A DNA stretch of 64,000 bases, from NCBI RefSeq assembly GCF_964204865.1, contig NC_135252.1, forward strand, positions 24,821,383-24,885,382. The letters are read 5' to 3'. This stretch comes from Styela clava. Taxonomy: Eukaryota > Chordata > Ascidiacea > Stolidobranchia > Styelidae. Position numbers and translations under genes: made by a program. The notes beneath the pieces are model-generated. The model did no database searches. It had not been told where the DNA came from and saw only the letters and a program-made list of their open reading frames with translations. Shown here piece after piece: positions 34,621 to 64,000 of this stretch; position 1 is the first letter of the stretch, and the number at the start of each line of letters is the position of its first letter.

Positions 34621-34671
34621 CCCGGTACCTCGCACATGCTAAGCGCGCTCTCTACCATATGAGCTACATTT
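34621..34671 (-). pseudogene. Truncated tRNA-Ala
   Basis: 3' part missing, fused to the end of a spacer block; acceptor 5' side altered. Confidence 0.75.
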
Positions 34672-34788
34672 CGATGCGACGGTAAACGGAATCAGGAATT
34701 TTTATCAAACATTATTAGTTTTCGGAATTTTTCTATTTGAAACATTATATTACAAGTCTTCTCGTGGTAACAAATTTTGAACAAAAAC

Positions 34789-34870
34789 TGGCAGCGGTGG
34801 GATTCGAACCCACGCCATTGAAATGACTGGTGCCTAAAACCAGCGCCTTAGACCGCTCGGCCACGCTACC
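34789..34870 (-). tRNA. tRNA-Leu-TAG: tRNA-Leu (TAG), reference copy
   Basis: 82-nt type II tRNA, anticodon loop TTTAGGC, closed CTGGT/ACCAG stem, acceptor GGTAGCG with CGCTGCC, A box TGGCCGAGCGG and B box GGTTCGAATCC. In most copies a run of T follows the 3' end as pol III terminator. Confidence 0.9.
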
Positions 34871-34963
34871 CTCCATGTGTCAGCGTTAATGTATATTCTA
34901 TTTTCATCAACTTATGCAATAGAATAATATATATGCATACTACGTTGCATAGATGAACCTTAA

Positions 34964-34973
34964 GCATCGATCC

Positions 34974-35008
<35 letters not shown>

Positions 35009-35024
35009 TATGAGCTACATCCCC
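34964..35024 (-). pseudogene. tRNA-Ala (AGC) lacking its 3' end
   Basis: The last 12 bases (acceptor 3' strand and start of T-stem) are replaced by the AACCTTAAG spacer. Confidence 0.8.
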
Positions 35025-35125
35025 GATGCGACTATGTTTTTCATCAAACCTTATTAGTTTTTAGGATTTTTTTATTTGAATTAATATATTACAAGTTATC
35101 GTGGTATCAAAGTTCGAGCAAAAAT

Positions 35126-35207
35126 TGGCAGCGGTGGGATTCGAACCCACGCCATCGAAATGACTGGTGCCTTAAACCAGCGCCTTAGACCGCTCGGCCA
35201 CGCTACC
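35126..35207 (-). tRNA. tRNA-Leu-AAG: tRNA-Leu (AAG), reference copy
   Basis: 82 nt, anticodon loop TTAAGGC. Differs from the Leu-TAG reference only at the wobble base and one variable-arm base. TTTTT follows the gene as terminator. ATTTGCAT lies 44-51 nt upstream. Confidence 0.92.
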
Positions 35208-35515
35208 CTGAATATATCAGCGTTGATGTATATTCTATTTTCATCAACATATGCAAATAGAATAATATGTATGCATAGTACGTTGTATAGATGAACCTTA
35301 AGCTTAGCATTGCGAGTGGTGAGATTTATGTCTGACAATTAGGAGCGGATTTCTATCTTTATTTTTTTGTGGTTAGTTTGACTTATTGGGTAAAATTATG
35401 AAATAATGAAAGACCTTTTTTGAGTGTTTATGCCAGAGGTTGGAACGAATTGAAAATATATCCATTAAAACACAAAAGCACCCTGAAAATTTAGTATTGT
35501 TTAACAAAAGAAGTC

Positions 35516-35537
35516 TGGAGATGCCGGGCATCGATCC

Positions 35538-35572
<35 letters not shown>

Positions 35573-35588
35573 TATGAGCTACATCCCC
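35516..35588 (-). tRNA. tRNA-Ala-TGC: tRNA-Ala (TGC), reference copy
   Basis: 73 nt, anticodon loop TTTGCAT. Identical to the Ala-AGC reference except for the wobble base. G3:U70 present. TTTT starts 7 nt after the gene. Confidence 0.92.
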
Positions 35589-35757
35589 CATGCGACTGGC
35601 GGATTCGAACCAACGCTATCGAAATGACTGGTGCATTAGACCAGCGCCTAAAACGGAATTTGGAATTCTTCATCAAACATTATTAGTTTTCGGGATTTTT
35701 CTATTTGAAATATTATATTACAAGTCTTCTCGTGGTAACAAATTTTGAAAAAAAAAC

Positions 35758-35839
35758 TGGCAGCGGTGGGATTCGAACCCACGCCATTGAAATGACTGGT
35801 GCCTAAAACCAGCGCCTTAGACCGCTCGGCCACGTTAAC
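35758..35839 (-). tRNA. tRNA-Leu-TAG: tRNA-Leu (TAG), acceptor changed
   Basis: 5' acceptor strand reads GTTAACG and no longer pairs fully with CGCTGCC; probably impaired. Confidence 0.6.
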
Positions 35840-36086
35840 CTACATATGTCAGCATTAATGTATATTATATTTTCATCAACCTATGCAAATAGAATATTAT
35901 ATATGCATACTACGTTGTATAGATGAACCTTAAGCTTAGCAGTACGAGTGGACTTATTGGTTAAAATTATATATCAATGAAAGACTTTTTCTTAGTGTAT
36001 ATGCAAGAGGTTGGAACGAATCGAACATTTTTTAATTCAAACACCAAAGCACGCTGGAAATTTGTTATTGTTTAACTAAAGTAATC

Positions 36087-36159
36087 TGGAGATGCCGGGC
36101 ATCGATCCCGGTACCTCACGCATGCTAAGCGCGCGCTCTACCATATGAGCTACATCCCC
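36087..36159 (-). tRNA. tRNA-Ala-AGC: tRNA-Ala (AGC), G:U in anticodon stem
   Basis: One C-to-T change makes a wobble pair. First of a head-to-tail pair, 12 nt from the next gene. Confidence 0.8.
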
Positions 36160-36171
36160 GATGCGACTATG

Positions 36172-36193
36172 TGGAGATGCCGGGCATCGATCC

Positions 36194-36228
<35 letters not shown>

Positions 36229-36244
36229 TATGAGCTACATCCCC
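36172..36244 (-). tRNA. tRNA-Ala-AGC: tRNA-Ala (AGC)
   Basis: Identical to 26346. Second of a pair with an 85-nt period. Confidence 0.9.
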
Positions 36245-36345
36245 GATGCGACTATGTTTTTCATCAAACCTTATTAGTTTTTAGGATTTTTTTATTTGAA
36301 TTAATAAATTACAAGTTATCGTGGTACCAAAGTTCGAGCAAAAAT

Positions 36346-36427
36346 TGGCAGCGGTGGGATTCGAACCCACGCCATCGAAATGACTGGTGCCTTAAACCAG
36401 CGCCTTAGACCGCTCGGCCACGCTACC
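36346..36427 (-). tRNA. tRNA-Leu-AAG: tRNA-Leu (AAG)
   Basis: Identical to 35126. Confidence 0.92.
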
Positions 36428-36735
36428 CTGCATATATCAGCGTTGATGTATATTCTATTTTCATCAACATATGCAAATAGAATAATATGTATGCAAAGTA
36501 CGTTGTATAGATGAACCTTAAGCTTAGCATTGCGAGTGGTGAGATTTATGTCTGACAATTAGGAGCGGATTTCTATCTTTATTTTTTTGTGGTTAGTTTG
36601 ACTTATTGGGTAAAATTATGAAATAATGAAAGACCTTTTTTGAGTGTATATGCCAGAGGTTGGAACGAATTGAAAATATATCCATTAAAACACAAAAGCA
36701 CCCTGAAAATTTAGTATTGTTTAACAAAAGAAGTC

Positions 36736-36746
36736 TGGAGATTTCC

Positions 36747-36781
<35 letters not shown>

Positions 36782-36797
36782 TATGAGCTACATCCCC
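36736..36797 (-). pseudogene. tRNA-Ala (TGC) with T-arm deletion
   Basis: About 11 bases of the T-arm are missing. Confidence 0.8.
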
Positions 36798-36953
36798 CAT
36801 GCGACTGTCGGTTTTGAACCAACGCTATCGAAATACTGGTGCCTTAGACCAGCGCCTAAAAACGGAATTTGGAATTTTTCATCAAACATTATTAGTTTTC
36901 GGGATTTTTCTATTTGAAATATTATATTACAAGTCTTCTCGTGCAAAATGCAG

Positions 36954-37035
36954 GGTAGCGTGGCCGAGCGGTCTAAGGCGCTGGTTTAAGGCACCAGTCA
37001 TTTCGATGGCGTGGGCTCGAATCCCACCGCTGCCA
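36954..37035 (+). tRNA. tRNA-Leu-AAG: tRNA-Leu (AAG), inverted copy
   Basis: The only full-length array gene on the plus strand. The T-loop and B box read GGCTCGAATCC, losing the conserved T54. It lies in an inverted segment of about 100 bp (36944-37043) that replaces a Leu-TAG gene. Confidence 0.75.
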
Positions 37036-37079
37036 ATTTTTGCACCCTGAAAATTTAGTATTGTTTAACAAAAGAAGTC

Positions 37080-37101
37080 TGGAGATGCCGGGCATCGATC
37101 C

Positions 37102-37136
<35 letters not shown>

Positions 37137-37152
37137 TATGAGCTACATCCCC
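37080..37152 (-). tRNA. tRNA-Ala-TGC: tRNA-Ala (TGC)
   Basis: Identical to 35516. Confidence 0.92.
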
Positions 37153-37321
37153 CATGCGACTGGCGCATTCGAACCAACGCTATCGAAATGACTGGTGCAT
37201 CAGACCAGCGCCTAAAACGGAATTTGGAATTCTTCATTAAACATTATTAGTTTTCGGGATTTTTCTATTTGAAATATTATATTACAAGTCTTCTCGTGGT
37301 AACAAATTTTGAAAAAAAAAC

Positions 37322-37403
37322 TGGCAGCGGTGGGATTCGAACCCACGCCATTGAAATGACTGGTGCCTAAAACCAGCGCCTTAGACCGCTCGGCCACGTT
37401 ACC
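37322..37403 (-). tRNA. tRNA-Leu-TAG: tRNA-Leu (TAG), one acceptor change
   Basis: Acceptor strand GGTAACG instead of GGTAGCG. Confidence 0.7.
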
Positions 37404-37711
37404 CTACATATGTCAGCATTAATGTATATTATATTTTCATCAACCTATGCAAATAGAATAATATATATGCATACTACGTTGTATAGATGAACCTTAAGCT
37501 TAGCAGTGCGAGTGGAGGGATTAATGTCTTACAATTAAGAGCGGATTCATATCTTTAGTTTTTTATGGTTATTTTGACTTATTGGTTAAAATTATATATC
37601 AATGAAAGACTTTTTCTTAGTGTATATGCGAGAGGTTGGAACGAATTGAACATTTTTTAATTCAAACACAAAAGCACGCTGGAAATTTGTTATTGCTTAA
37701 CTAAAGCAATC

Positions 37712-37733
37712 TGGAGATGCCGGGCATCGATCC

Positions 37734-37768
<35 letters not shown>

Positions 37769-37784: not shown

Positions 37785-37796
37785 GATGCGACTATG

Positions 37797-37818: not shown

Positions 37819-37853
<35 letters not shown>

Positions 37854-39065: not shown

Positions 39066-39493
39066 TCGTGTAGGTAGCGTAGCCGGGCGTTCTGAAACAT
39101 CTGAAATTTCGTTGACATGTGCAGAGTTTGATGATATTGTTCCCTAGACTCCACGCGTGCCGAGACTGCGCTTCCTTTTAACTGTCCGCTTCCAAGTGTC
39201 TAGTAGTTTAAAACGTGTGAAATCTTGGTTGTGTATTCTAATCTTCAGTAAACGATAACGGTAAAATCGATTCAAAGTTTCAGTGAAAGTAAGTATGACA
39301 TCAAAAGACTTAACTTTGTTTGTGGAACAGGCTTATCGTTGCAGTTGAGATGCGTGTTGCGATAGATTCTCCAGTCGAGGGGCAATCAAGTAAACGCTCC
39401 AAAAATCGAAACGCGTTATCACCTCACTCGAACAATCAACGGTCGACGCGACCCGGACCATGATGTCGCTATAAATTAGAAGACTTATGCAAT
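39066..39493. repeat. Spacer block, full copy
   Basis: About 430 bp of non-tRNA DNA. The minus strand has a 42-codon frame, 39461-39333. The plus strand has a GTAAGTATG donor-like site after an acceptor-like TCTAATCTTCAG. Function unknown. Other copies are listed separately. Confidence 0.8.
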
Positions 39494-39648: not shown

Positions 39649-39766
39649 TGGCAGCGGTGGGATTCGAACCCACGCCATCGAAATGACTGGTGCCTTAAAC
39701 CAGCGCCTTAGACCGCTCGGCCTCGCGCATGCTAAGCGCGCGCTCTACCATATGAGCTACATCCCC
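39649..39766 (-). pseudogene. tRNA-Ala/tRNA-Leu fusion
   Basis: 39649-39720 is Leu-AAG without its acceptor 5' strand. It joins at a shared CC directly to 39721-39766, the 5' two-thirds of Ala-AGC. It looks like a non-allelic recombination join between two tRNA genes. Confidence 0.85.
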
Positions 39767-41778: not shown

Positions 41779-42086
41779 CTGCATATATCAGCGTTGATGT
41801 ATATTCTATTTTCATCAACATATGCAAATAGAATAATATGTATGCATAGTACGTTGTATAGATGAACCTTAAGCTTAGCATTGCGAGTGGTGAGATTTAT
41901 GTCTGACAATTAGGAGCGGATTTCTATCTTTATTTTTTTGTGGTTAGTTTGACTTATTGGGTAAAATTATGAAATAATGAAAGACCTTTTTTGAGTGTAT
42001 ATGCCAGAGGTTGGAACGAATTGAAAATATATCCATTAAAACACAAAAGCACCCTGAAAATTTAGTATTGTTTAACAAAAGAAGTC

Positions 42087-44607: not shown

Positions 44608-45013
44608 CATGCGACTGTCGGTTTCGAACCAACGCTATCGAAATGACTGGTGCCTTAGACCAGCGCCTAAAAACGGAATTTGGAATTTTTCATCAAACAT
44701 TATTAGTTTTCGGGATTTTTCTATTTGAAATATTATATTACAAGACATATGCAAATAGAATAATATGTATGCATAGTACGCTGTATAGATGAACCTTAAG
44801 CTTAGCATTGCGAGTGGTGAGATTTATGTCTGACAATTAGGAGCGGATTTCTATCTTTATTTTTTTGTGGATATTTTGACTTATTGGGTAAAATTATAAA
44901 ATAATGAAAGACCTTTTTTGAGTGTATATGCCAGAGGTTGGAACGAATTGAAAATATATCCATTAAAACACAAAAGCACCCTGAAAATTTAGTATTGTTT
45001 AACAAAAGAAGTC

Positions 45014-45035
45014 TGGAGATGCCGGGCATCGATCC

Positions 45036-45070
<35 letters not shown>

Positions 45071-45086
45071 TATGAGCTACATCCCC
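45014..45086 (-). tRNA. tRNA-Ala-TGC: tRNA-Ala (TGC)
   Basis: Identical to 35516. Confidence 0.92.
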
Positions 45087-45255
45087 CATGCGACTGTCGG
45101 TTTCGAACCAACGCTATCGAAATGACTGGTGCCTTAGACCAGCGCTTAAAAACGGAATTTAGAATTTTTCATCAAACATTATTAGTTTTCGGGATTTTTC
45201 TATTTGAAATATTATATTACAAGTCTTCTCGTGGTAACACATTTTTAAAAAAAAC

Positions 45256-45337
45256 TGGCAGCGGTGGGATTCGAACCCACGCCATTGAAATGACTGGTGC
45301 CTAAAACCAGCGCCTTAGACCGCTCGGCCACGCTACC
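45256..45337 (-). tRNA. tRNA-Leu-TAG: tRNA-Leu (TAG)
   Basis: Identical to 34789. Confidence 0.92.
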
Positions 45338-45645
45338 CTCCATATGTCAGCGTTAATGTATATTCTATTTTCATCAACTTATGCAAATAGAATAATATAT
45401 ATGCATACTACGTTGTATAGATGAACCTTAAGCTTAGCAGTGCGAGTGGAGGGATTATTGTCTTACAATTAAGAGCGGATTCATATCTTTAGTTTTTTAT
45501 GGTTATTTTGACTTATTGGTTAAAATTATAAAATAATGAAAGACCTTTTTTGAGTATATATGCCAGAGGTTGGAACGAATTGAAAATATATCCATTAAAA
45601 CACAAAAGCACCCTGAAAATTTAGTATTGTTTAACAAAAGAAGTC

Positions 45646-45667
45646 TGGAGATGCCGGGCATCGATCC

Positions 45668-45702
<35 letters not shown>

Positions 45703-45718
45703 TATGAGCTACATCCCC
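45646..45718 (-). tRNA. tRNA-Ala-TGC: tRNA-Ala (TGC)
   Basis: Identical to 35516. Confidence 0.92.
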
Positions 45719-45887
45719 CATGCGACTGTCGGTTTCGAACCAACGCTATCGAAATGACTGGTGCCTTAGACCAGCGCCTAAAAACGGAATTTGGAATTTT
45801 TCATCAAACATTATTAGTTTTCGGGATTTTTCTATTTGAAATATTATATTACAAGTCTTCTCGTGGTAACACATTTAAAAAAAAAAC

Positions 45888-45969
45888 TGGCAGCGGTGGG
45901 ATTCGAACCCACGCCATTGAAATGACTGGTGCCTAAAACCAGCGCCTTAGACCGCTCGGCCACGCTACC
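45888..45969 (-). tRNA. tRNA-Leu-TAG: tRNA-Leu (TAG)
   Basis: Identical to 34789, unlike its duplicate at 41132. Confidence 0.92.
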
Positions 45970-46278
45970 CTCCATATGTCAGCGTTAATGTATATTCTAT
46001 TTTCATCATTTTATGCAAATAGAATAATATATATGCATACTACGTTGTATAGATGAACCTTAAGCTTAGCAGTGCGAGTGGAGGGATTATTGTCTTACAA
46101 TTAAGAGCGGATTCATATCTTTAGTTTTTTTATGGTTATTTTGACTTATTGGTTAAAATTATAGATCAATGAAAGACTTTTTCTTAGTGTATATGCGAGA
46201 GGTTGGAACGAATTGAACATATTTTAATTCAAACACAAAAGCACGCTGGAAATTTATAATTGTTTAACAAAAGTAATC

Positions 46279-46300
46279 TGGAGATGCCGGGCATCGATCC

Positions 46301-46335
<35 letters not shown>

Positions 46336-46351
46336 TATGAGCTACATCCCC
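46279..46351 (-). tRNA. tRNA-Ala-AGC: tRNA-Ala (AGC)
   Basis: Identical to 26346. Confidence 0.92.
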
Positions 46352-46452
46352 GATGCGACTATGTTTTTCATCAAACCTTATTAGTTTGTAGGATTTTTTT
46401 ATTTGAATTAATATATTACAAGTTATCGTGGTATCAAAGTTCGAGCAAAAAT

Positions 46453-46534
46453 TGGCAGCGGTGGGATTCGAACCCACGCCATCGAAATGACTGGTGCCTT
46501 AAACCAGCGCCTTAGACCGCTCGGCCACGCTACC
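46453..46534 (-). tRNA. tRNA-Leu-AAG: tRNA-Leu (AAG)
   Basis: Identical to 35126. Confidence 0.92.
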
Positions 46535-46842
46535 CTGCATATATCAGCGTTGATGTATATTCTATTTTCATCAACATATGCAAATAGAATAATATGTATG
46601 CATAGTACGTTGTATAGATGAACCTTAAGCTTAGCATTGCGAGTGGTGAGATTTATGTCTGACAATTAGGAGCGGATTTCTATCTTTATTTTTTTGTGGT
46701 TAGTTTGACTTATTGGGTAAAATTATGAAATAATGAAAGACCTTTTTTGAGTGTATATGCCAGAGGTTGGAACGAATTGAAAATATATCCATTAAAACAC
46801 AAAAGCACCCTGAAAATTTAGTATTGTTTAACAAAAGAAGTC

Positions 46843-46851
46843 TGGAGATGC

Positions 46852-46886
<35 letters not shown>

Positions 46887-46902
46887 TATGAGCTACATCC
46901 TC
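46843..46902 (-). pseudogene. tRNA-Ala (TGC) with T-arm deletion
   Basis: Same deletion as 42087. Confidence 0.85.
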
Positions 46903-47071
46903 CACGCGACTGTCGGTTTCGAACCAACGCTATCGAAATGACTGGTGCCTTAGACCAGCGCTTAAAAACGGAATTTGGAATTTTTCATCAAACATTATTA
47001 GTTTTCGGGATTTTTCTATTTGAAATATTATATTACAAGTCTTCTCGTGGTAACACATTTTTAAAAAAAAC

Positions 47072-47153
47072 TGGCAGCGGTGGGATTCGAACCCACGCCA
47101 TTGAAATGACTGGTGCCTAAAACCAGCGCCTTAGACCGCTCGGCCACGCTACC
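47072..47153 (-). tRNA. tRNA-Leu-TAG: tRNA-Leu (TAG)
   Basis: Identical to 34789. Confidence 0.92.
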
Positions 47154-47461
47154 CTCCATATGTCAGCGTTAATGTATATTCTATTTTCATCAACTTATGC
47201 AAATAGAATAATATATATGCATACTACGTTGTATAGATGAACCTTAAGCTTAGCAGTGCGAGTGGAGGGATTATTGTCTTACAATTAAGAGCGGATTCAT
47301 ATCTTTAGTTTTTTATGGTTATTTTGACTTATTGGTTAAAATTATAAAATAATGAAAGACCTTTTTTGAGTGTATATGCCAGAGGTTGGAACGAATTGAA
47401 AATATATCCATTAAAACACAAAAGCACCCTGAAAATTTAGTATTGTTTAACAAAAGAAGTC

Positions 47462-47534
47462 TGGAGATGCCGGGCATCGATCCCGGTACCTCGTGCATGC
47501 AAAGCGCGCGCTCTACCATATGAGCTACATCCCC
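47462..47534 (-). tRNA. tRNA-Ala-TGC: tRNA-Ala (TGC), anticodon-stem mismatch
   Basis: Same change as 42706. Confidence 0.7.
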
Positions 47535-47703
47535 CACGCGACTGTCGGTTTCGAACCAACGCTATCGAAATGACTGGTGCCTTAGACCAGCGCCTAAAAA
47601 CGGAATTTGGAATTTTTCATCAAACATTATTAGTTTTCGGGATTTTTCTATTTGAAATATTATATTACAAGTCTTCTCGTGGTAACACATTTTTTAAAAA
47701 AAC

Positions 47704-47785
47704 TGGCAGCGGTGGGATTCGAACCCACGCCATTGAAATGACTGGTGCCTAAAACCAGCGCCTTAGACCGCTCGGCCACGCTACC
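47704..47785 (-). tRNA. tRNA-Leu-TAG: tRNA-Leu (TAG)
   Basis: Identical to 34789. Confidence 0.92.
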
Positions 47786-48094
47786 CTCCATATGTCAGCG
47801 TTAATGTATATTCTATTTTCATCATTTTATGCAAATAGAATAATATATATGCATACTACATTGTATAGATGAACCTTAAGCTTAGCAGTGCGAGTGGAGG
47901 GATTATTGTCTTACAATTAAGAGCGGATTCATATCTTTAGTTTTTTTATGGTTATTTTGACTTATTGGTTAAAATTATAGATCAATGAAAGACTTTTTCT
48001 TAGTGTATATGCGAGAGGTTGGAACGAATTGAACATATTTTAATTCAAACACAAAAGCACGCTGGAAATTTATAATTGTTTAACAAAAGTAATC

Positions 48095-48167
48095 TGGAGA
48101 TGCCGGGCATCGATCCCGGTACCTCACGCATGCTAAGCGCGCGCTCTACTATATGAGCTACATCCCC
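48095..48167 (-). tRNA. tRNA-Ala-AGC: tRNA-Ala (AGC), D-loop G19A
   Basis: Same changes as 43339. Confidence 0.6.
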
Positions 48168-48268
48168 GATGCGACTATGTTTTTCATCAAACCTTCTTAG
48201 TTTTTAGGATTTTTTTATTTGAATTAATATATTACAAGTTATCGTGGTATCAAAGTTCGAGCAAAAAT

Positions 48269-48350
48269 TGGCAGCGGTGGGATTCGAACCCACGCCATCG
48301 AAATGACTGGTGCCTTAAACCAGCGCCTTAGACCGCTCGGCCACGCTACC
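48269..48350 (-). tRNA. tRNA-Leu-AAG: tRNA-Leu (AAG)
   Basis: Identical to 35126. Confidence 0.92.
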
Positions 48351-48658
48351 CTGCATATATCAGCGTTGATGTATATTCTATTTTCATCAACATATGCAAA
48401 TAGAATAATATGTATGCATAGTACGCTGTATAGATGAACCTTAAGCTTAGCATTGCGAGTGGTGAGATTTATGTCTGACAATTAGGAGCGGATTTCTATC
48501 TTTATTTTTTTGTGGATATTTTGACTTATTGGGTAAAATTATAAAATAATGAAAGACCTTTTTTGAGTGTATATGCCAGAGGTTGGAACGAATTGAAAAT
48601 ATATCCATTAAAACACAAAAGCACCCTGAAAATTTAGTATTGTTTAACAAAAGAAGTC

Positions 48659-48680
48659 TGGAGATGCCGGGCATCGATCC

Positions 48681-48715
<35 letters not shown>

Positions 48716-48731
48716 TATGAGCTACATCCCC
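48659..48731 (-). tRNA. tRNA-Ala-TGC: tRNA-Ala (TGC)
   Basis: Identical to 35516. Confidence 0.92.
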
Positions 48732-48900
48732 CATGCGACTGTCGGTTTCGAACCAACGCTATCGAAATGACTGGTGCCTTAGACCAGCGCTTAAAAACGG
48801 AATTTAGAATTTTTCATCAAACATTATTAGTTTTCGGGATTTTTCTATTTGAAATATTATATTACAAGTCTTCTCGTGGTAACACATTTTTAAAAAAAAC

Positions 48901-48982
48901 TGGCAGCGGTGGGATTCGAACCCACGCCATTGAAATGACTGGTGCCTAAAACCAGCGCCTTAGACCGCTCGGCCACGCTACC
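48901..48982 (-). tRNA. tRNA-Leu-TAG: tRNA-Leu (TAG)
   Basis: Identical to 34789. Confidence 0.92.
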
Positions 48983-49290
48983 CTCCATATGTCAGCGTTA
49001 ATGTATATTCTATTTTCATCAACTTATGCAAATAGAATAATATATATGCATACTACGTTGTATAGATGAACCTTAAGCTTAGCAGTGCGAGTGGAGGGAT
49101 TATTGTCTTACAATTAAGAGCGGATTCATATCTTTAGTTTTTTATGGTTATTTTGACTTATTGGTTAAAATTATAAAATAATGAAAGACCTTTTTTGAGT
49201 ATATATGCCAGAGGTTGGAACGAATTGAAAATATATCCATTAAAACACAAAAGCACCCTGAAAATTTAGTATTGTTTAACAAAAGAAGTC

Positions 49291-49312
49291 TGGAGATGCC
49301 GGGCATCGATCC

Positions 49313-49347
<35 letters not shown>

Positions 49348-49363
49348 TATGAGCTACATCCCC
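49291..49363 (-). tRNA. tRNA-Ala-TGC: tRNA-Ala (TGC)
   Basis: Identical to 35516. Confidence 0.92.
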
Positions 49364-49532
49364 CATGCGACTGTCGGTTTCGAACCAACGCTATCGAAAT
49401 GACTGGTGCCTTAGACCAGCGCCTAAAAACGGAATTTGGAATTTTTCATCAAACATTATTAGTTTTCGGGATTTTTCTATTTGAAATATTATATTACAAG
49501 TCTTCTCGTGGTAACACATTTAAAAAAAAAAC

Positions 49533-49614
49533 TGGCAGCGGTGGGATTCGAACCCACGCCATTGAAATGACTGGTGCCTAAAACCAGCGCCTTAGACCGC
49601 TCGGCCACGCTACC
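49533..49614 (-). tRNA. tRNA-Leu-TAG: tRNA-Leu (TAG)
   Basis: Identical to 34789. Confidence 0.92.
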
Positions 49615-49923
49615 CTCCATATGTCAGCGTTAATGTATATTCTATTTTCATCATTTTATGCAAATAGAATAATATATATGCATACTACGTTGTATAGATG
49701 AACCTTAAGCTTAGCAGTGCGAGTGGAGGGATTATTGTCTTACAATTAAGAGCGGATTCATATCTTTAGTTTTTTTATGGTTATTTTGACTTATTGGTTA
49801 AAATTATAGATCAATGAAAGACTTTTTCTTAGTGTATATGCGAGAGGTTGGAACGAATTGAACATATTTTAATTCAAACACAAAAGCACGCTGGAAATTT
49901 ATAATTGTTTAACAAAAGTAATC

Positions 49924-49945
49924 TGGAGATGCCGGGCATCGATCC

Positions 49946-49980
<35 letters not shown>

Positions 49981-49996
49981 TATGAGCTACATCCCC
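49924..49996 (-). tRNA. tRNA-Ala-AGC: tRNA-Ala (AGC)
   Basis: Identical to 26346. Confidence 0.92.
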
Positions 49997-50097
49997 GATG
50001 CGACTATGTTTTTCATCAAACCTTATTAGTTTGTAGGATTTTTTTATTTGAATTAATATATTACAAGTTATCGTGGTATCAAAGTTCGAGCAAAAAT

Positions 50098-50179
50098 TGG
50101 CAGCGGTGGGATTCGAACCCACGCCATCGAAATGACTGGTGCCTTAAACCAGCGCCTTAGACCGCTCGGCCACGCTACC
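50098..50179 (-). tRNA. tRNA-Leu-AAG: tRNA-Leu (AAG)
   Basis: Identical to 35126. Confidence 0.92.
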
Positions 50180-50487
50180 CTGCATATATCAGCGTTGATG
50201 TATATTCTATTTTCATCAACATATGCAAATAGAATAATATGTATGCATAGTACGTTGTATAGATGAACCTTAAGCTTAGCATTGCGAGTGGTGAGATTTA
50301 TGTCTGACAATTAGGAGCGGATTTCTATCTTTATTTTTTTGTGGTTAGTTTGACTTATTGGGTAAAATTATGAAATAATGAAAGACCTTTTTTGAGTGTA
50401 TATGCCAGAGGTTGGAACGAATTGAAAATATATCCATTAAAACACAAAAGCACCCTGAAAATTTAGTATTGTTTAACAAAAGAAGTC

Positions 50488-50496
50488 TGGAGATGC

Positions 50497-50531
<35 letters not shown>

Positions 50532-50547
50532 TATGAGCTACATCCTC
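50488..50547 (-). pseudogene. tRNA-Ala (TGC) with T-arm deletion
   Basis: Same deletion as 42087. Confidence 0.85.
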
Positions 50548-50716
50548 CACGCGACTGTCGGTTTCGAACCAACGCTATCGAAATGACTGGTGCCTTAGAC
50601 CAGCGCTTAAAAACGGAATTTGGAATTTTTCATCAAACATTATTAGTTTTCGGGATTTTTCTATTTGAAATATTATATTACAAGTCTTCTCGTGGTAACA
50701 CATTTTTAAAAAAAAC

Positions 50717-50798
50717 TGGCAGCGGTGGGATTCGAACCCACGCCATTGAAATGACTGGTGCCTAAAACCAGCGCCTTAGACCGCTCGGCCACGCTACC
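50717..50798 (-). tRNA. tRNA-Leu-TAG: tRNA-Leu (TAG)
   Basis: Identical to 34789. Confidence 0.92.
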
Positions 50799-51106
50799 CT
50801 CCATATGTCAGCGTTAATGTATATTCTATTTTCATCAACTTATGCAAATAGAATAATATATATGCATACTACGTTGTATAGATGAACCTTAAGCTTAGCA
50901 GTGCGAGTGGAGGGATTATTGTCTTACAATTAAGAGCGGATTCATATCTTTAGTTTTTTATGGTTATTTTGACTTATTGGTTAAAATTATAAAATAATGA
51001 AAGACCTTTTTTGAGTGTATATGCCAGAGGTTGGAACGAATTGAAAATATATCCATTAAAACACAAAAGCACCCTGAAAATTTAGTATTGTTTAACAAAA
51101 GAAGTC

Positions 51107-51128
51107 TGGAGATGCCGGGCATCGATCC

Positions 51129-51163
<35 letters not shown>

Positions 51164-51179
51164 TATGAGCTACATCCCC
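51107..51179 (-). tRNA. tRNA-Ala-TGC: tRNA-Ala (TGC)
   Basis: Identical to 35516; lacks the stem mismatch of its module equivalents at 42706 and 47462. Confidence 0.92.
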
Positions 51180-51348
51180 CACGCGACTGTCGGTTTCGAA
51201 CCAACGCTATCGAAATGACTGGTGCCTTAGACCAGCGCCTAAAAACGGAATTTGGAATTTTTCATCAAACATTATTAGTTTTCGGGATTTTTCTATTTGA
51301 AATATTATATTACAAGTCTTCTCGTGGTAACACATTTTTTAAAAAAAC

Positions 51349-51430
51349 TGGCAGCGGTGGGATTCGAACCCACGCCATTGAAATGACTGGTGCCTAAAAC
51401 CAGCGCCTTAGACCGCTCGGCCACGCTACC
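51349..51430 (-). tRNA. tRNA-Leu-TAG: tRNA-Leu (TAG)
   Basis: Identical to 34789. Confidence 0.92.
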
Positions 51431-51739
51431 CTCCATATGTCAGCGTTAATGTATATTCTATTTTCATCATTTTATGCAAATAGAATAATATATATGCATA
51501 CTACATTGTATAGATGAACCTTAAGCTTAGCAGTGCGAGTGGAGGGATTATTGTCTTACAATTAAGAGCGGATTCATATCTTTAGTTTTTTTATGGTTAT
51601 TTTGACTTATTGGTTAAAATTATAGATCAATGAAAGACTTTTTCTTAGTGTATATGCGAGAGGTTGGAACGAATTGAACATATTTTAATTCAAACACAAA
51701 AGCACGCTGGAAATTTATAATTGTTTAACAAAAGTAATC

Positions 51740-51761
51740 TGGAGATGCCGGGCATCGATCC

Positions 51762-51794
<33 letters not shown>

Positions 51795-51812
51795 TATATG
51801 AGCTACATCCCC
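51740..51812 (-). tRNA. tRNA-Ala-AGC: tRNA-Ala (AGC), D-loop G19A
   Basis: D-loop change as in 43339; anticodon stem normal. Confidence 0.6.
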
Positions 51813-51913
51813 GATGCGACTATGTTTTTCATCAAACCTTCTTAGTTTTTAGGATTTTTTTATTTGAATTAATATATTACAAGTTATCGTGGTATCAAAG
51901 TTCGAGCAAAAAT

Positions 51914-51995
51914 TGGCAGCGGTGGGATTCGAACCCACGCCATCGAAATGACTGGTGCCTTAAACCAGCGCCTTAGACCGCTCGGCCACGCTACC
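51914..51995 (-). tRNA. tRNA-Leu-AAG: tRNA-Leu (AAG)
   Basis: Identical to 35126. Confidence 0.92.
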
Positions 51996-52303
51996 CTGCA
52001 TATATCAGCGTTGATGTATATTCTATTTTCATCAACATATGCAAATAGAATAATATGTATGCATAGTACGTTGTATAGATGAACCTTAAGCTTAGCATTG
52101 CGAGTGGTGAGATTTATGTCTGACAATTAGGAGCGGATTTCTATCTTTATTTTTTTGTGGTTAGTTTGACTTATTGGGTAAAATTATGAAATAATGAAAG
52201 ACCTTTTTTGAGTGTATATGCCAGAGGTTGGAACGAATTGAAAATATATCCATTAAAACACAAAAGCACCCTGAAAATTTAGTATTGTTTAACAAAAGAA
52301 GTC

Positions 52304-52325
52304 TGGAGATGCCGGGCATCGATCC

Positions 52326-52360
<35 letters not shown>

Positions 52361-52376
52361 TATGAGCTACATCCTC
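52304..52376 (-). tRNA. tRNA-Ala-TGC: tRNA-Ala (TGC), acceptor mismatch
   Basis: Acceptor begins GAGG instead of GGGG, so position 2 no longer pairs; G3:U70 kept. Confidence 0.65.
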
Positions 52377-52545
52377 TACGCGACTGTCGGTTTCGAACCA
52401 ACGCTATCGAAATGACTGGTACCTTAGACCAGCGCTTAAAAACGGAATTTGGAATTTTTCATCAAACATTATTAGTTTTCGGGATTTTTCTATTTGAAAT
52501 ATTATATTACAAGTCTTCTCGTGGTAACACATTTTTAAAAAAAAC

Positions 52546-52627
52546 TGGCAGCGGTGGGATTCGAACCCACGCCATTGAAATGACTGGTGCCTAAAACCAG
52601 CGCCTTAGACCGCTCGGCCACGCTACC
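52546..52627 (-). tRNA. tRNA-Leu-TAG: tRNA-Leu (TAG)
   Basis: Identical to 34789. Confidence 0.92.
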
Positions 52628-52935
52628 CTCCATATGTCAGCGTTAATGTATATTCTATTTTCATCAACTTATGCAAATAGAATAATATATATGCATACTA
52701 CGTTGTATAGATGAACCTTAAGCTTAGCAGTGCGAGTGGAGGGATTATTGTCTTACAATTAAGAGCGGATTCATATCTTTAGTTTTTTATGGTTATTTTG
52801 ACTTATTGGTTAAAATTATAAAATAATGAAAGACCTTTTTTGAGTGTATATGCCAGAGGTTGGAACGAATTGAAAATATATCCATTAAAACACAAAAGCA
52901 CCCTGAAAATTTAGTATTGTTTAACAAAAGAAGTC

Positions 52936-52957
52936 TGGAGATGCCGGGCATCGATCC

Positions 52958-52992
<35 letters not shown>

Positions 52993-53008
52993 TATGAGCT
53001 ACATCCCC
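52936..53008 (-). tRNA. tRNA-Ala-TGC: tRNA-Ala (TGC)
   Basis: Identical to 35516. Confidence 0.92.
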
Positions 53009-53177
53009 CACGCGACTGTCGGTTTCGAACCAACGCTATCGAAATGACTGGTGCCTTAGATCAGCGCCTAAAAACGGAATTTGGAATTTTTCATCAAACA
53101 TTATTAGTTTTCGGGATTTTTCTATTTGAAATATTATATTACAAGTCTTCTCGTGGTAACACATTTTTTAAAAAAAC

Positions 53178-53259
53178 TGGCAGCGGTGGGATTCGAACCC
53201 ACGCCATTGAAATGACTGGTGCCTAAAACCAGCGCCTTAGACCGCTCGGCCACGCTACC
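53178..53259 (-). tRNA. tRNA-Leu-TAG: tRNA-Leu (TAG)
   Basis: Identical to 34789. Confidence 0.92.
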
Positions 53260-53568
53260 CTCCATATGTCAGCGTTAATGTATATTCTATTTTCATCATT
53301 TTATGCAAATAGAATAATATATATGCATACTACGTTGTATAGATGAACCTTAAGCTTAGCAGTGCGAGTGGAGGGATTATTGTCTTACAATTAAGAGCGG
53401 ATTCATATCTTTAGTTTTTTTATGGTTATTTTGACTTATTGGTTAAAATTATAGATCAATGAAAGACTTTTTCTTAGTGTATATGCGAGAGGTTGGAACG
53501 AATTGAACATATTTTAATTCAAACACAAAAGCACGCTGGAAATTTATAATTGTTTAACAAAAGTAATC

Positions 53569-53590
53569 TGGAGATGCCGGGCATCGATCC

Positions 53591-53623
<33 letters not shown>

Positions 53624-53641
53624 TATATGAGCTACATCCCC
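53569..53641 (-). tRNA. tRNA-Ala-AGC: tRNA-Ala (AGC), D-loop G19A
   Basis: Same D-loop change as 51740. Confidence 0.6.
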
Positions 53642-53742
53642 GATGCGACTATGTTTTTCATCAAAGCTTCTTAGTTTTTAGGATTTTTTTATTTGAATTA
53701 ATATATTACAAGTTATCGTGGTATCAAAGTTCGAGCAAAAAT

Positions 53743-53824
53743 TGGCAGCGGTGGGATTCGAACCCACGCCATCGAAATGACTGGTGCCTTAAACCAGCGC
53801 CTTAGACCGCTCGGCCACGCTACC
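53743..53824 (-). tRNA. tRNA-Leu-AAG: tRNA-Leu (AAG)
   Basis: Identical to 35126. Confidence 0.92.
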
Positions 53825-54132
53825 CTGCATATATCAGCGTTGATGTATATTCTATTTTCATCAACATATGCAAATAGAATAATATGTATGCATAGTACGT
53901 TGTATAGATGAACCTTAAGCTTAGCATTGCGAGTGGTGAGATTTATGTCTGACAATTAGGAGCGGATTTCTATCTTTATTTTTTTGTGGTTAGTTTGACT
54001 TATTGGGTAAAATTATGAAATAATGAAAGACCTTTTTTGAGTGTATATGCCAGAGGTTGGAACGAATTGAAAATATATCCATTAAAACACAAAAGCACCC
54101 TGAAAATTTAGTATTGTTTAACAAAAGAAGTC

Positions 54133-54154
54133 TGGAGATGCCGGGCATCGATCC

Positions 54155-54189
<35 letters not shown>

Positions 54190-54205
54190 TATGAGCTACA
54201 TCCTC
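54133..54205 (-). tRNA. tRNA-Ala-TGC: tRNA-Ala (TGC), acceptor mismatch
   Basis: Same GAGG acceptor as 52304. Confidence 0.65.
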
Positions 54206-54374
54206 CACGCGACTGTCGGTTTCGAACCAACGCTATCGAAATGACTGGTACCTTAGACCAGCGCTTAAAAACGGAATTTGGAATTTTTCATCAAACATTA
54301 TTAGTTTTCGGGATTTTTCTATTTGAAATATTATATTACAAGTCTTCTCGTGGTAACACATTTTTAAAAAAAAC

Positions 54375-54456
54375 TGGCAGCGGTGGGATTCGAACGCACG
54401 CCATTGAAATGACTGGTGCCTAAAACCAGCGCCTTAGACCGCTCGGCCACGCTACC
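54375..54456 (-). tRNA. tRNA-Leu-TAG: tRNA-Leu (TAG), T-stem mismatch
   Basis: Plus strand CGAACGCACG instead of CGAACCCACG. Confidence 0.7.
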
Positions 54457-54764
54457 CTCCATATGTCAGCGTTAATGTATATTCTATTTTCATCAACTTA
54501 TGCAAATAGAATAATATATATGCATACTACGTTGTATAGATGAACCTTAAGCTTAGCAGTGCGAGTGGAGGGATTATTGTCTTACAATTAAGAGCGGATT
54601 CATATCTTTAGTTTTTTATGGTTATTTTGACTTATTGGTTAAAATTATAAAATAATGAAAGACCTTTTTTGAGTGTATATGCCAGAGGTTGGAACGAATT
54701 GAAAATATATCCATTAAAACACAAAAGCACCCTGAAAATTTAGTATTGTTTAACAAAAGAAGTC

Positions 54765-54786
54765 TGGAGATGCCGGGCATCGATCC

Positions 54787-54821
<35 letters not shown>

Positions 54822-54837
54822 TATGAGCTACATCCCC
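54765..54837 (-). tRNA. tRNA-Ala-TGC: tRNA-Ala (TGC)
   Basis: Identical to 35516. Confidence 0.92.
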
Positions 54838-55006
54838 CACGCGACTGTCGGTTTCGAACCAACGCTATCGAAATGACTGGTGCCTTAGACCAGCGCCTAA
54901 AAACGGAATTTGGAATTTTTCATCAAACATTATTAGTTTTCGGGATTTTTCTATTTGAAATATTATATTACAAGTCTTCTCGTGGTAACACATTTTTTAA
55001 AAGAAC

Positions 55007-57790: not shown

Positions 57791-57839
57791 TGGAGATGCC
57801 GGGCATCGATCCCGGTACCTCGCGCATGCTAAGCGCGCG
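57791..57839 (-). pseudogene. tRNA-Ala (AGC) 3' half
   Basis: Breaks off after the anticodon stem into a spacer block at ACTCCACGCG. Confidence 0.8.
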
Positions 57840-58185
57840 ACTCCACGCGTGCCGAGACTGCGCTTCCTTTTAACTGTCCGTTTCCAAGTGTCTAGTAGTT
57901 TAAAACGTGTGAAATCTTGGTTGTGTATTCTAATCTTCAGTAAACGATAACGGTAAAATCGATTCAAAGTTTCAGTGAAAGTAAGTATGACATCAAAAGA
58001 CTTAACTTATTTTGTGGAACAGGCTTATCGTTGCAGTTGAGATGCGTGTTGCGATAGATTCTCCAGTCGAGGGGCAATCAAGTAAACGCCCCAAAAATCG
58101 AAACGCGTTATCACCTCACTCGAACAATCAACGGTCGACGCGACCCGGACCATGATGTCGCTATAAATTAGAAGACTTATGCAAT
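57839..58185. repeat. Spacer block, left end missing
   Basis: 42-codon minus-strand frame intact, 58153-58025. Confidence 0.75.
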
Positions 58186-59503: not shown

Positions 59504-59552
59504 TGGAGATGCCGGGCATCGATCCCGGTACCTCGCGCATGCTAAGCGCGCG
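59504..59552 (-). pseudogene. tRNA-Ala (AGC) 3' half
   Basis: Duplicate of 57791. Confidence 0.8.
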
Positions 59553-59897
59553 ACTCCACGCGTGCCGAGACTGCGCTTCCTTTTAACTGTCCGTTTCCAA
59601 GTGTCTAGTAGTTTAAAACGTGTGAAATCTTGGTTGTGTATTCTAATCTTCAGTAAACGATAACGGTAAAATCGATTCAAAGTTTCAGTGAAAGTAAGTA
59701 TGACATCAAAAGACTTAACTTATTTTGTGGAACAGGCTTATCGTTGCAGTTGAGATGCGTGTTGCGATAGATTCTCCAGTCGAGGGGCAATCAAGTAAAC
59801 GCCCCAAAAATCGAAACGCGTTATCACCTCACTCGAACAATCAACGGTCGACGCGACCCGGACCATGATGTCGCTATAAATTAGAAGACTTATGCAA
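59552..59897. repeat. Spacer block, left end missing
   Basis: Duplicate of 57839; 42-codon frame at 59866-59738. Confidence 0.75.
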
Positions 59898-61048: not shown

Positions 61049-61070
61049 TGGAGATGCCGGGCATCGATCC

Positions 61071-61105
<35 letters not shown>

Positions 61106-61120
61106 TTGAGCTACATCCCC
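61049..61120 (-). tRNA. tRNA-Ala-TGC: tRNA-Ala (TGC), D-loop deletion
   Basis: One D-loop base lost, giving 72 nt; G18-G19 kept. Confidence 0.7.
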
Positions 61121-61289
61121 CATGCGACTGTCGGTTTCGAACCAACGCTATCGAAATGACTGGTGCCTTAGACCAGCGCCTAAAAACGGAATTTGGAATT
61201 TTTCATCAAACATTATTAGTTTTCGGGATTTTTCTATTTGAAATATTATATTACAAGTCTTCTCGTGGTAACACTTTTTTAGAAAAAGT

Positions 61290-61371
61290 TGGCAGCGGTG
61301 GGATTCGAACCCATGCCATTGAAATGACTGGTGCCTAAAACCAGCGCCTTAGACCGCTCGGCCACGCTACC
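61290..61371 (-). tRNA. tRNA-Leu-TAG: tRNA-Leu (TAG), T-stem mismatch
   Basis: GTGGG of the T-stem reads ATGGG. The downstream T-run is broken by C. Confidence 0.65.
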
Positions 61372-61680
61372 CTCCATATGTCAGCGTTAATGTATATTCT
61401 ATTTTCATCAACTTATGCAAATAGAATAATATATATGCATACTACGTTGTATAGATGAACCTTAAGCTTAGCAGTGCGAGTGGAGGGATTATTGTCTTAC
61501 AATTAAGAGTGGATTCATATCTTTAGTTTTTTTATGGTTATTTTGACTTATTGGTTAAAATTATAGATCAATGAAAGACTTTTTCTTAGTGTATATGCGA
61601 GAGGTTGGAACGAATTGAACATATTTTAATTCAAACACAAAAGCACGCTGGAAATTTATAATTGTTTAACAAAAGTAATC

Positions 61681-61702
61681 TGGAGATGCCGGGCATCGAT
61701 CC

Positions 61703-61737
<35 letters not shown>

Positions 61738-61753
61738 TATGAGCTACATCCCC
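61681..61753 (-). tRNA. tRNA-Ala-AGC: tRNA-Ala (AGC)
   Basis: Identical to 26346. Confidence 0.92.
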
Positions 61754-61854
61754 GATGCGACTATGTTTTTCATCAAACCTTATTAGTTTTTAGGATTTTT
61801 TTATTTGAATTAGTATATTACAAGTTATCGTGGTATCAAAGTTCGAGCAAAAAT

Positions 61855-61936
61855 TGGCAGCGGTGGGATTCGAACCCACGCCATCGAAATGACTGGTGCC
61901 TTAAACCAGCGCCTTAGACCGCGCGGCCACGCTACC
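61855..61936 (-). tRNA. tRNA-Leu-AAG: tRNA-Leu (AAG), A-box change
   Basis: A box TGGCCGAGCGG reads TGGCCGCGCGG, losing conserved A14. Confidence 0.6.
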
Positions 61937-62244
61937 CTGCATATATCAGCGTTGATGTATATTCTATTTTCATCAACATATGCAAATAGAATAATATGTA
62001 TGCATAGTACGTTGTATAGTTGAACCTTAAGCTTAGCATTGCGAGTGGTGAGATTTATGTCTGACAATTAGGAGCGGATTTCTATCTTTATTTTTTTGTG
62101 GTTAGTTTGACTTATTGGGTAAAATTATGAAATAATGAAAGACCTTTTTTGAGTGTATATGCCAGAGGTTGGAACGAATTGAAAATATATCCATTAAAAC
62201 ACAAAGGCACCCTGAAAATTTAGTATTGTTTAACAAAAGAAATC

Positions 62245-62266
62245 TGGAGATGCCGGGCATCGATCC

Positions 62267-62301
<35 letters not shown>

Positions 62302-62317
62302 TATGAGCTACATCCCC
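62245..62317 (-). tRNA. tRNA-Ala-TGC: tRNA-Ala (TGC)
   Basis: Gene body identical to 35516. Confidence 0.92.
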
Positions 62318-62486
62318 TATGCGACTGTCGGTTTCGAACCAACGCTATCAAAATGACTGGTGCCTTAGACCAGCGCCTAAAAACGGAATTTGGAATTTTA
62401 CATCAAACATTATTAGTTTTCGGGATTTTTCTATTTGAAATATTATATTACAAGTCTTCTCGTGGTAACAAATTTCGAACAAAAAC

Positions 62487-62568
62487 TGGCAGCGGTGGGA
62501 TTCGAACCAACGCCATTGAAATGACTGGTGCCTAAAACCAGCGCCTTAGACCGCTCGGCCACGCTACC
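62487..62568 (-). tRNA. tRNA-Leu-TAG: tRNA-Leu (TAG), T-stem mismatch
   Basis: Same change as 38603. Confidence 0.7.
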
Positions 62569-62875
62569 CTCCATATGTCAGCGTTAATGTATATTCTATT
62601 TTCATCAACTTATGCAAATAGAATAATATATATGCATACTACGTTGTATTGATGAACCTTAAGCTTAGCAGTGCGAGTGGAGGAATTAATGTCTTACAAT
62701 TAAGAGCGGATTCATATCTTTAGTTTTTATGGTTATTTTGACTTATTGGTTAAAATTATAGATCAATGAAAGACTTTTTCTTGGTGTATATGCGAGAGGT
62801 TGGAACGAATTGAACATATTTTAATTCAAACACAAAAGCACCCTGGAAATTTATTATTGTTTAACAAAAGTAATC

Positions 62876-62897
62876 TGGAGATGCCGGGCATCGATCC

Positions 62898-62932
<35 letters not shown>

Positions 62933-62948
62933 TATGAGCTACATCCCA
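62876..62948 (-). tRNA. tRNA-Ala-AGC: tRNA-Ala (AGC), first base altered
   Basis: Acceptor begins TGGG at the join with a spacer block, as at 38993; otherwise intact. Confidence 0.6.
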
Positions 62949-63375
62949 TCGTGTAGGTAGCGTAGCCGGACGTTCTGAAACATATGAAATTTCGTTGACA
63001 TGTGCAGAGTTTGTTGATATTGTTCCCTAGACTCCACGCGTGCCGAGACTGCGCTTCCTTTTGACTGTCCGCTTCCAAGTGTCTAGTAGTTTAAAACGTG
63101 TAAAATCTTGGTTGTGTATTCTAATCTTCAGTAAACGATAACGGTAAAATCGATTCAAAGTTTCAGTGAAAGTAAGTATGACATCAAAAGACTTAACTTA
63201 TTTTGTGGAACAGGCTTATCGTTGCAGTTGAGATGCGTGTTGCGAGAGATTCTCCAGTCGAGGGGCAATCAAGTAAACGCCCCAAAAATCGAAACGCGTT
63301 ATCACCTCACTCGAACAATCAACGGTCGACTCGACCCGGACCATGATGTCGCTATAAATTAGAAGACTTATGCAA
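62949..63375. repeat. Spacer block, full copy
   Basis: Closest to 39066-39493. 42-codon minus-strand frame at 63344-63216. Confidence 0.8.
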
Positions 63376-63429
63376 TCCAGGTACCACGCGCACGCTAATC
63401 GCGCGCTCTACCATATGAGCTACATCCCC
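63376..63429 (-). pseudogene. Truncated tRNA-Ala
   Basis: Same truncation as 39492. Confidence 0.75.
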
Positions 63430-63530
63430 GATGTGACTATGTTTTTCATCAAACCTTATTAGTTTTTAGGATTTCTTTATTTGAATTAATATATTACAAG
63501 TTATAGTGGTATCAAAGTTCGAGCCAAAAT

Positions 63531-63612
63531 TGGCAGCGGTGGGATTCGAACCCACGCCATCGAAATGACTGGTGCCTTAAACCAGCGCCTTAGACCGCTC
63601 GGCCACGCTACC
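63531..63612 (-). tRNA. tRNA-Leu-AAG: tRNA-Leu (AAG)
   Basis: Gene body identical to 35126; terminator is TTTT. Confidence 0.92.
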
Positions 63613-63920
63613 CTGCATATATCAGCGTTGATGTATATTCTATTTTCATCAACATATGCAAATAGAATAATATGTATGCATAGAACGTTGTATAGATGAA
63701 TCTTAAGCTTAGCATTGCGAGTGGTGAGATTTATGTCTGACAATTAGGAGTGGATTTCTATCTTTATTTTTTTGTGGTTATTTTGACTTATTGGGTAAAA
63801 TTATAAAATAATGAAAGACCTTTTTTGAGTGTATATGCCAGAGGTTGGAACGAATTGAAAATATATCCATTAAAACACAAAAGCACCCTGAAAATTTAGT
63901 ATTGTTTAACAAAAGAAGTC

Positions 63921-63993
63921 TGGAGATGCCGGGCATCGATCCCGGTACCTTGCGCATGCAAAGCGCGCGCTCCACCATATGAGCTACATCCCC
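63921..63993 (-). tRNA. tRNA-Ala-TGC: tRNA-Ala (TGC), stem and D-arm changes
   Basis: One anticodon-stem mismatch (GCGCA) and GGTAGAGC reads GGTGGAGC. Confidence 0.65.
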
Positions 63994-64000
63994 CATGCGA

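Follow-up and report, generated by a model that had tools for sequence, protein, structure and literature searches.

A 106-kb tandem array of leucine and alanine tRNA genes, built from two wobble-paired repeat units, in the ascidian Styela clava

A stretch of 64,000 nucleotides from a Styela clava contig (NC_135252.1, here C3; positions 24821383-24885382), referred to below as the window and numbered from its first base, was analyzed for its tRNA gene content. Positions 34621..64000 (minus strand; ARAGORN and Rfam) hold the first part of a tandem array of leucine and alanine tRNA genes that continues to position 140737 (C3:24962119). The array consists of two repeat units, 632 bp (Leu-UAG with Ala-UGC) and 565 bp (Leu-AAG with Ala-AGC), each with Leu before Ala in the direction of transcription, and its distinctive detail is that the two versions differ in the wobble base of both genes in the unit. 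We put at about 0.7 the probability that this is a working array of genes for RNA polymerase III (Pol III), the uniformity of which is maintained by unequal recombination together with selection, a reading drawn from the sequence.

A first-pass annotation of the window had described about 86 tRNA genes, for Ala and Leu only and all but one on one strand, in under 30 kb. ARAGORN returned 88 tRNA calls across the window, 86 of which fall in 34621–64000 and comprise 45 Leu (27 TAG and 18 AAG) and 41 Ala (24 TGC, one of them printed as Gln-TTG, 15 AGC and two of odd length). Eighty-five of these are on the minus strand, the exception being one Leu-AAG gene on the plus strand (36954..37035). The number, the isotype content and the strand bias were therefore as annotated, with the Gln call being a miscalled Ala and one Ala call a chimera. 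The span, however, describes the window portion alone. When the window was joined to the adjoining 100 kb of C3 (164 kb in all), the whole array was found to occupy C3:24856171-24962119, a length of 105,949 bp with zero N and 315 tRNA calls (152 Leu and 163 Ala); all but two Leu-AAG calls are on the minus strand, and tRNA genes make up 23% of this DNA. Likewise, the four anticodons reported earlier are those of the window, but the whole array adds three Ala-CGC genes and two Ala bodies with a Thr-UGU anticodon (119421-119493 and 121813-121885 in window numbering, beyond the window), in which the G3:U70 pair is kept. Over the whole array, we discounted three calls of Arg-TCG and two of Gln-TTG, which are Ala-CGC and Ala-TGC genes, respectively, read in a shifted anticodon frame. 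The Rfam tRNA family (RF00005) gave 94 window matches over the gathering score, truncated relics among them, and the adjoining 100 kb gave 228 Rfam matches, all tRNA among the 150 matches listed. Three further tRNA calls, each Ala-AGC, lie outside the array within the 164 kb, and five Markov-sampled sequences with the length and base steps of the array yielded zero calls. The assembly comprises 376.6 Mb in 379 contigs; since C3 totals 25.58 Mb, the array is located about 0.6 Mb from the contig end.

The alternation of Ala and Leu genes noted earlier is correct in outline, but the actual unit is a Leu and Ala pair that exists in two versions. In the 632-bp unit (for example, 61937..62568, minus strand), Leu-TAG is followed by a 169-nt spacer that contains a relic of the Leu 3′ part, Ala-TGC and a 308-nt spacer; in the 565-bp unit (for example, 61372..61936, minus strand), Leu-AAG is followed by a 101-nt spacer, Ala-AGC and a 309-nt spacer. 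Among the 43 Leu-to-Leu units in the window, 19 measure exactly 632 bp and 10 exactly 565 bp, the corresponding numbers for the whole array being 52 and 28 of 149, and the remaining units show small length changes, relics, insertions or lost genes. A 619-bp variant of the 632-bp unit (50180..50798, minus strand) includes a truncated Ala relic at 50488-50547, and two more units of this length are located at 41779 and 46535. Within the window, units recur with a higher-order period of 1829 bp (632+632+565), while past the window the long and short units alternate more often along the whole-array unit string. Blocks of 7-10 kb repeat at 98-99.5% identity with offsets of 1829, 19992, 21705 and 31933 bp, and a 10.1-kb block (44745..54846, minus strand) matches itself at the 1829-bp shift with 98.5% identity. 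Within the window array, Tandem Repeats Finder (TRF; periods up to 500 bp) detected periods of 85, 173, 219 and 479 bp only, which correspond to local duplications of unit parts, and the GC content ranged from 0.37 to 0.42 across 34001-64000 in 2-kb steps. An AT-rich stretch with ATTTGCAT lies approximately 45-50 bp upstream of Leu, is alike in both unit consensuses and is a possible upstream element.

The earlier description of full-length tRNA genes for two amino acids with four anticodons was upheld in that most copies look like intact eukaryotic tRNA genes: every checked stem pair is formed in 64 of the 86 window copies and in 211 of the 315 copies of the whole array (the check covered the acceptor, D, anticodon and T stems, leaving out the Leu variable arm). 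Copies identical to one of the four consensus sequences number 52 of 86 and 162 of 315, respectively. The G3:U70 alanine determinant, also annotated earlier, is present in all 159 full-length Ala copies of the array, and a T run (at least four T within 30 nt downstream) follows 148 of the 152 Leu and 145 of the 163 Ala copies, or 293 of 315 together, in keeping with the usual terminators described previously. The cloverleaf, the identity element and the terminator of functional eukaryotic tRNA genes are thus found here.

For the consensus sequences of the two units, 33 of the 43 units in the window were used, namely the 29 with exact lengths plus one 636-bp and three 619-bp units. Of 155 sites in the tRNA bodies, 3 differ between these consensuses, and two of the three fall at position 34 (A versus T, in both genes), whereas the spacers differ at 56 of 409 sites (14%; Fisher p = 9e-6). 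The Leu relic in the 632-bp unit spacer, which shares 85-87% identity with Leu-TAG over 47-52 nt, has drifted (taken as 7/52) in a spacer-like manner (p = 1.0) and unlike the intact genes (p = 0.003).

Isotype patterns for Leu, Ala, a Lys type and Gly were searched across the genome; these counts are of sequence-pattern matches, relics included, and the totals are complete, with locations known for about the first 100 matches per pattern. The Leu pattern (34 positions, at most 3 mismatches allowed) gave 166 matches genome-wide, 156 in the array and 10 outside, and a Leu 3′-end pattern gave 128, of which 125 are in the array; both refer to this Leu family, with Leu-CAG and Leu genes of other sequence outside the count. 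The Ala pattern (up to 2 mismatches) gave 300 matches, of which 183 fall within the array and 2 in the flanking DNA. These numbers, which answer the call of the first-pass annotation for a count of Ala and Leu genes elsewhere, do not point to dispersed genes as the supply of this Leu tRNA family, while for Ala 115 of 300 lie beyond the array and flank. Among the dispersed copies that we saw are one intact Leu-AAG gene near C3:10288322 and, on contig C1, two Ala-TGC genes; a small Ala/Leu array with steps of about 0.84-0.95 kb is located at C3:21.30 Mb, and single or paired tRNA genes are also present elsewhere in the genome. Searches of viral and genome contig sets with the exact tRNA sequences gave no match, the records of this genome being possibly excluded from those sets.

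Genes for tRNA are transcribed individually by Pol III, from A and B boxes inside the gene to a terminating run of T. The A at position 34 is usually converted to inosine by deamination, and under the wobble rules AGC and UGC together read all Ala GCN codons and AAG and UAG all Leu CUN codons. On account of this coverage the locus is most likely the main source of tRNA for this Leu family and also important for the supply of Ala tRNA, and we infer from the copy number that it feeds the tRNA pool. As for its origin, an ancestral Leu and Ala pair may have been duplicated into two versions, one with A34 in both genes and one with U34 in both. Block duplications and unequal crossing-over would then have expanded both versions to about 300 genes in 106 kb, and each gene would be transcribed singly by Pol III from its internal boxes, with termination at the T run that follows it.

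The first-pass annotation regarded the make-up of the array as unusual. That the array is unique within its genome was not supported: further arrays were seen here, and such arrays have been published for Hydractinia and Nematostella (PMC11067881; PMC2888827). On contig C9, 36 tRNA calls were obtained in 20 kb (C9:21066000-21085999), comprising Ala (TGC/CGC) and Ser-GCT on the minus strand and Ser-CGA on the plus strand. The Lys-type pattern gave 385 matches; among the matches listed, all but one lie at C2:15.88-15.95 Mb, where they span about 71 kb, and 14 Lys-TTT genes were found within 8 kb (C2:15898000-15906000). The 306 matches to the Gly pattern are, among those listed, at C3:23.49-23.67 or C4:22.82-22.85 Mb, and 22 genes for Gly-GCC, Ser-TGA and Arg-TCT were found within 6 kb (C3:23508000-23514000). 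For U5 small nuclear RNA (snRNA), 46 of 42,525 first-look candidates were scored, and 42 of these 46 lie on one strand within 0.2 Mb (C13:6266491-6467598). Several tRNA isotypes and U5 are thus arrayed in one genome, as in arrays of the Hydractinia and Nematostella type. A special demand for Ala/Leu-rich proteins, considered as a main reading, was set aside, since the arraying of other isotypes does not indicate one.

In Hydractinia, tRNAs of all 20 amino acids as well as U1, U2, U5, U6 and U3 are arrayed, with roughly even spacing and tens to hundreds of near-identical copies; tRNA arrays are also reported in Nematostella and in no other cnidarian genome compared there, and are termed unusual outside Entamoeba (Schnitzler et al., 2024, PMC11067881). 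The S. clava genome resembles Hydractinia in having Ala/Leu, Ala/Ser, Lys, Gly/Ser/Arg and U5 genes arrayed, and the present locus resembles the arrays of both cnidarians in its 315 near-identical tandem copies, similar spacers, 565/632-bp units and blocks at 98-99.5% identity. Because of these precedents, the array belongs to a known kind. The section on these arrays in the Hydractinia paper does not mention isotype pairings or wobble versions, both of which are seen here (PMC11067881). In Nematostella and teleosts, tDNA clusters of fifty and more have been described with pairs mostly parallel, and the legend of Figure 4 names a cluster in which Arg-TCT is combined with either Thr-AGT or Thr-TGT (Bermudez-Santana et al., 2010, PMC2888827); unlike in those clusters as described, the wobble base here changes jointly in both members of the pair, and the 315 calls are at one locus. 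Such a paired switch was not found in the compared accounts (PMC11067881; PMC2888827), and no report of an Ala/Leu pairing was seen in searches of open-access text, which took in most hits as listings and did not extend to the Hydractinia supplements. Nearly all tRNA genes of Entamoeba are in long tandem arrays of homogenized units, with 25 unit types in E. histolytica that have up to five tRNA genes and complex short tandem repeats between them (PMC2652664); unlike in E. histolytica and E. dispar as described there, TRF detected no short tandem repeats between genes in the window array. The human tRNA macrosatellite at 1q23.3 is likewise a tandem repeat with tRNA genes, but its unit is reported as 7.3 kb, GC-rich and with five tRNAs on both strands (PMC4041453), in contrast to a unit of about 0.6 kb, 37-42% GC and all but two calls on one strand in S. 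clava.

Several observations weigh against a working array kept uniform by recombination and selection. Defects were seen in 104 of the 315 copies, 100 with one or two stem mismatches and four of odd length, and T1 is present in 20 Ala copies of the whole array. As given above, over a third of the Ala pattern matches lie elsewhere in the genome. In the 565-bp units (34 of 149), the nucleotide diversity of the Ala gene (pi 0.020) falls between those of the two spacers (0.012 and 0.029), and in the 632-bp units (66) the diversity of the Leu relic (0.0175) does not exceed that of the intact Leu gene (0.0186). The comparison of unit types thus reveals constraint, whereas selection acting on individual copies is not shown, and recent copying would give the same pattern.

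The alternatives overlap with the reading preferred here and with one another, and are not mutually exclusive. In the first, which we hold to be possible although unlikely, the array would be a stage- or tissue-specific reserve, mostly silent and switched on in the germ line, the early embryo or a special cell type, with dispersed genes doing the housekeeping. Zebrafish tRNA repeats, proposed as a maternal tRNA source, offer an analogy that may speak for it, as does the Arabidopsis SYY cluster, which is similarly tandem and composed of genes for two amino acids, in that case Ser and Tyr, and is described as silent in most tissues and active in root-cap cells (PMC12308677). Dispersed copies, such as the Leu-AAG and Ala-TGC genes named above, are present in this genome too; however, just 10 of the 166 Leu matches fall outside the array, and with other isotypes arrayed as well there is no sign of a particular need for Ala and Leu.

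A rather improbable alternative is that the array is a satellite, that is, tRNA-derived tandem DNA expanding by recombination, with most copies being unneeded. Consistent with this are the higher-order repeats, relics, chimeras and inserted repeat, the 104 copies with defects in stem pairing or length, and the Ala gene of the short unit, which is without clear excess constraint within its unit type. Against it, the tRNA bodies differ between the units nearly at the wobble position alone while the spacers have diverged by 14%, G3:U70 is invariant in full-length Ala copies and the T run nearly so, and few other matches of this Leu family exist in the genome. That the repeat was collapsed or falsely expanded in assembly is very improbable: near-identical blocks of up to 10 kb assemble poorly and the copy number may be inexact, but the 164 kb contain zero N, the units vary by substitutions, length changes, inversions and insertions, a related small array exists at C3:21.30 Mb, and the Hydractinia authors, facing the same question, argued from Nematostella and a second assembly (PMC11067881). 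An origin as short interspersed nuclear elements was set aside on the full length of most copies, their tandem layout and their own T runs.

We also considered, as a doubtful extension, that the units act as decoding cassettes, in which recombination of the A34 and U34 Leu and Ala pairs shifts both doses, and that the Thr-UGU Ala bodies make the array a nursery for anticodon change. If the units are such cassettes, one of each kind would cover two whole four-codon boxes, and recombination would change the doses of the two amino acids and the two wobble classes jointly. The Thr-UGU bodies (2 of 315), if transcribed and charged with Ala, could place Ala at Thr ACA codons. More generally, in a gapless 106-kb array the tRNA dose and the anticodon variants can shift by recombination with the tRNA bodies fixed, and should most of a Leu tRNA family come from a single locus, the number of copies there and the state of its chromatin would be direct levers on translation. 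With S. clava, the few animals in which tRNA and snRNA genes are arrayed gain one more member; the system is not of a new kind.

Irregular members of the array include a chimera of an Ala 5′ half and a Leu 3′ part (39678..39766, minus strand), called as Ala-AGC and not a normal tRNA gene; an Ala call that is one base short (61049..61120); and the Ala-TGC gene miscalled as Gln-TTG, with the anticodon frame off by one (63921..63993, minus strand). A lone Ala-AGC gene lies just beyond the array edge (34085..34157, minus strand) and a second one 7.7 kb farther out (26346..26418, minus strand); the latter is accompanied by a weak Leu-like tRNA match at 26073-26141, and the two together look like an outlying decayed unit. 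A 346-bp repeat is located inside an Ala gene at 57839..58184 (minus strand), with other copies in the window at 39147-39492, 59552-59897 and 63030-63375. The whole array contains 19 full-length copies at 98.3-100% identity, and diverged copies are found at both outer array edges and at 29253-29508. The three sites that were read are in or adjoining an Ala gene or Ala piece, and by eye the ends of the repeat have no obvious inverted repeat.

Elsewhere in the window, exons of a pyruvate dehydrogenase kinase-like gene were observed at 4268-7341 (minus strand) and an open frame matching a RING finger (PF13920) at 29890-30114 (plus strand). Two open frames at 32148-32928 (minus strand), which gave no Pfam match, recall by eye a mobile element with a zinc finger and a tyrosine-recombinase-like protein. 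The kinase-like gene and the telomere-type TTAGGG repeats noted below suggest an animal genome. Searches for COX1, GFP and an arthropod cuticle domain as taxonomic markers yielded no match; the COX1 control was recovered in 8 of 14 genomes and the other two controls in none, which makes the lack of GFP and of the cuticle domain weak evidence. A short T-rich tandem repeat lies at 18682-18746; similar-looking repeats were seen by eye at the starts of C3, C4, C9 and C20, and TTAGGG repeats stand at the starts of several contigs.

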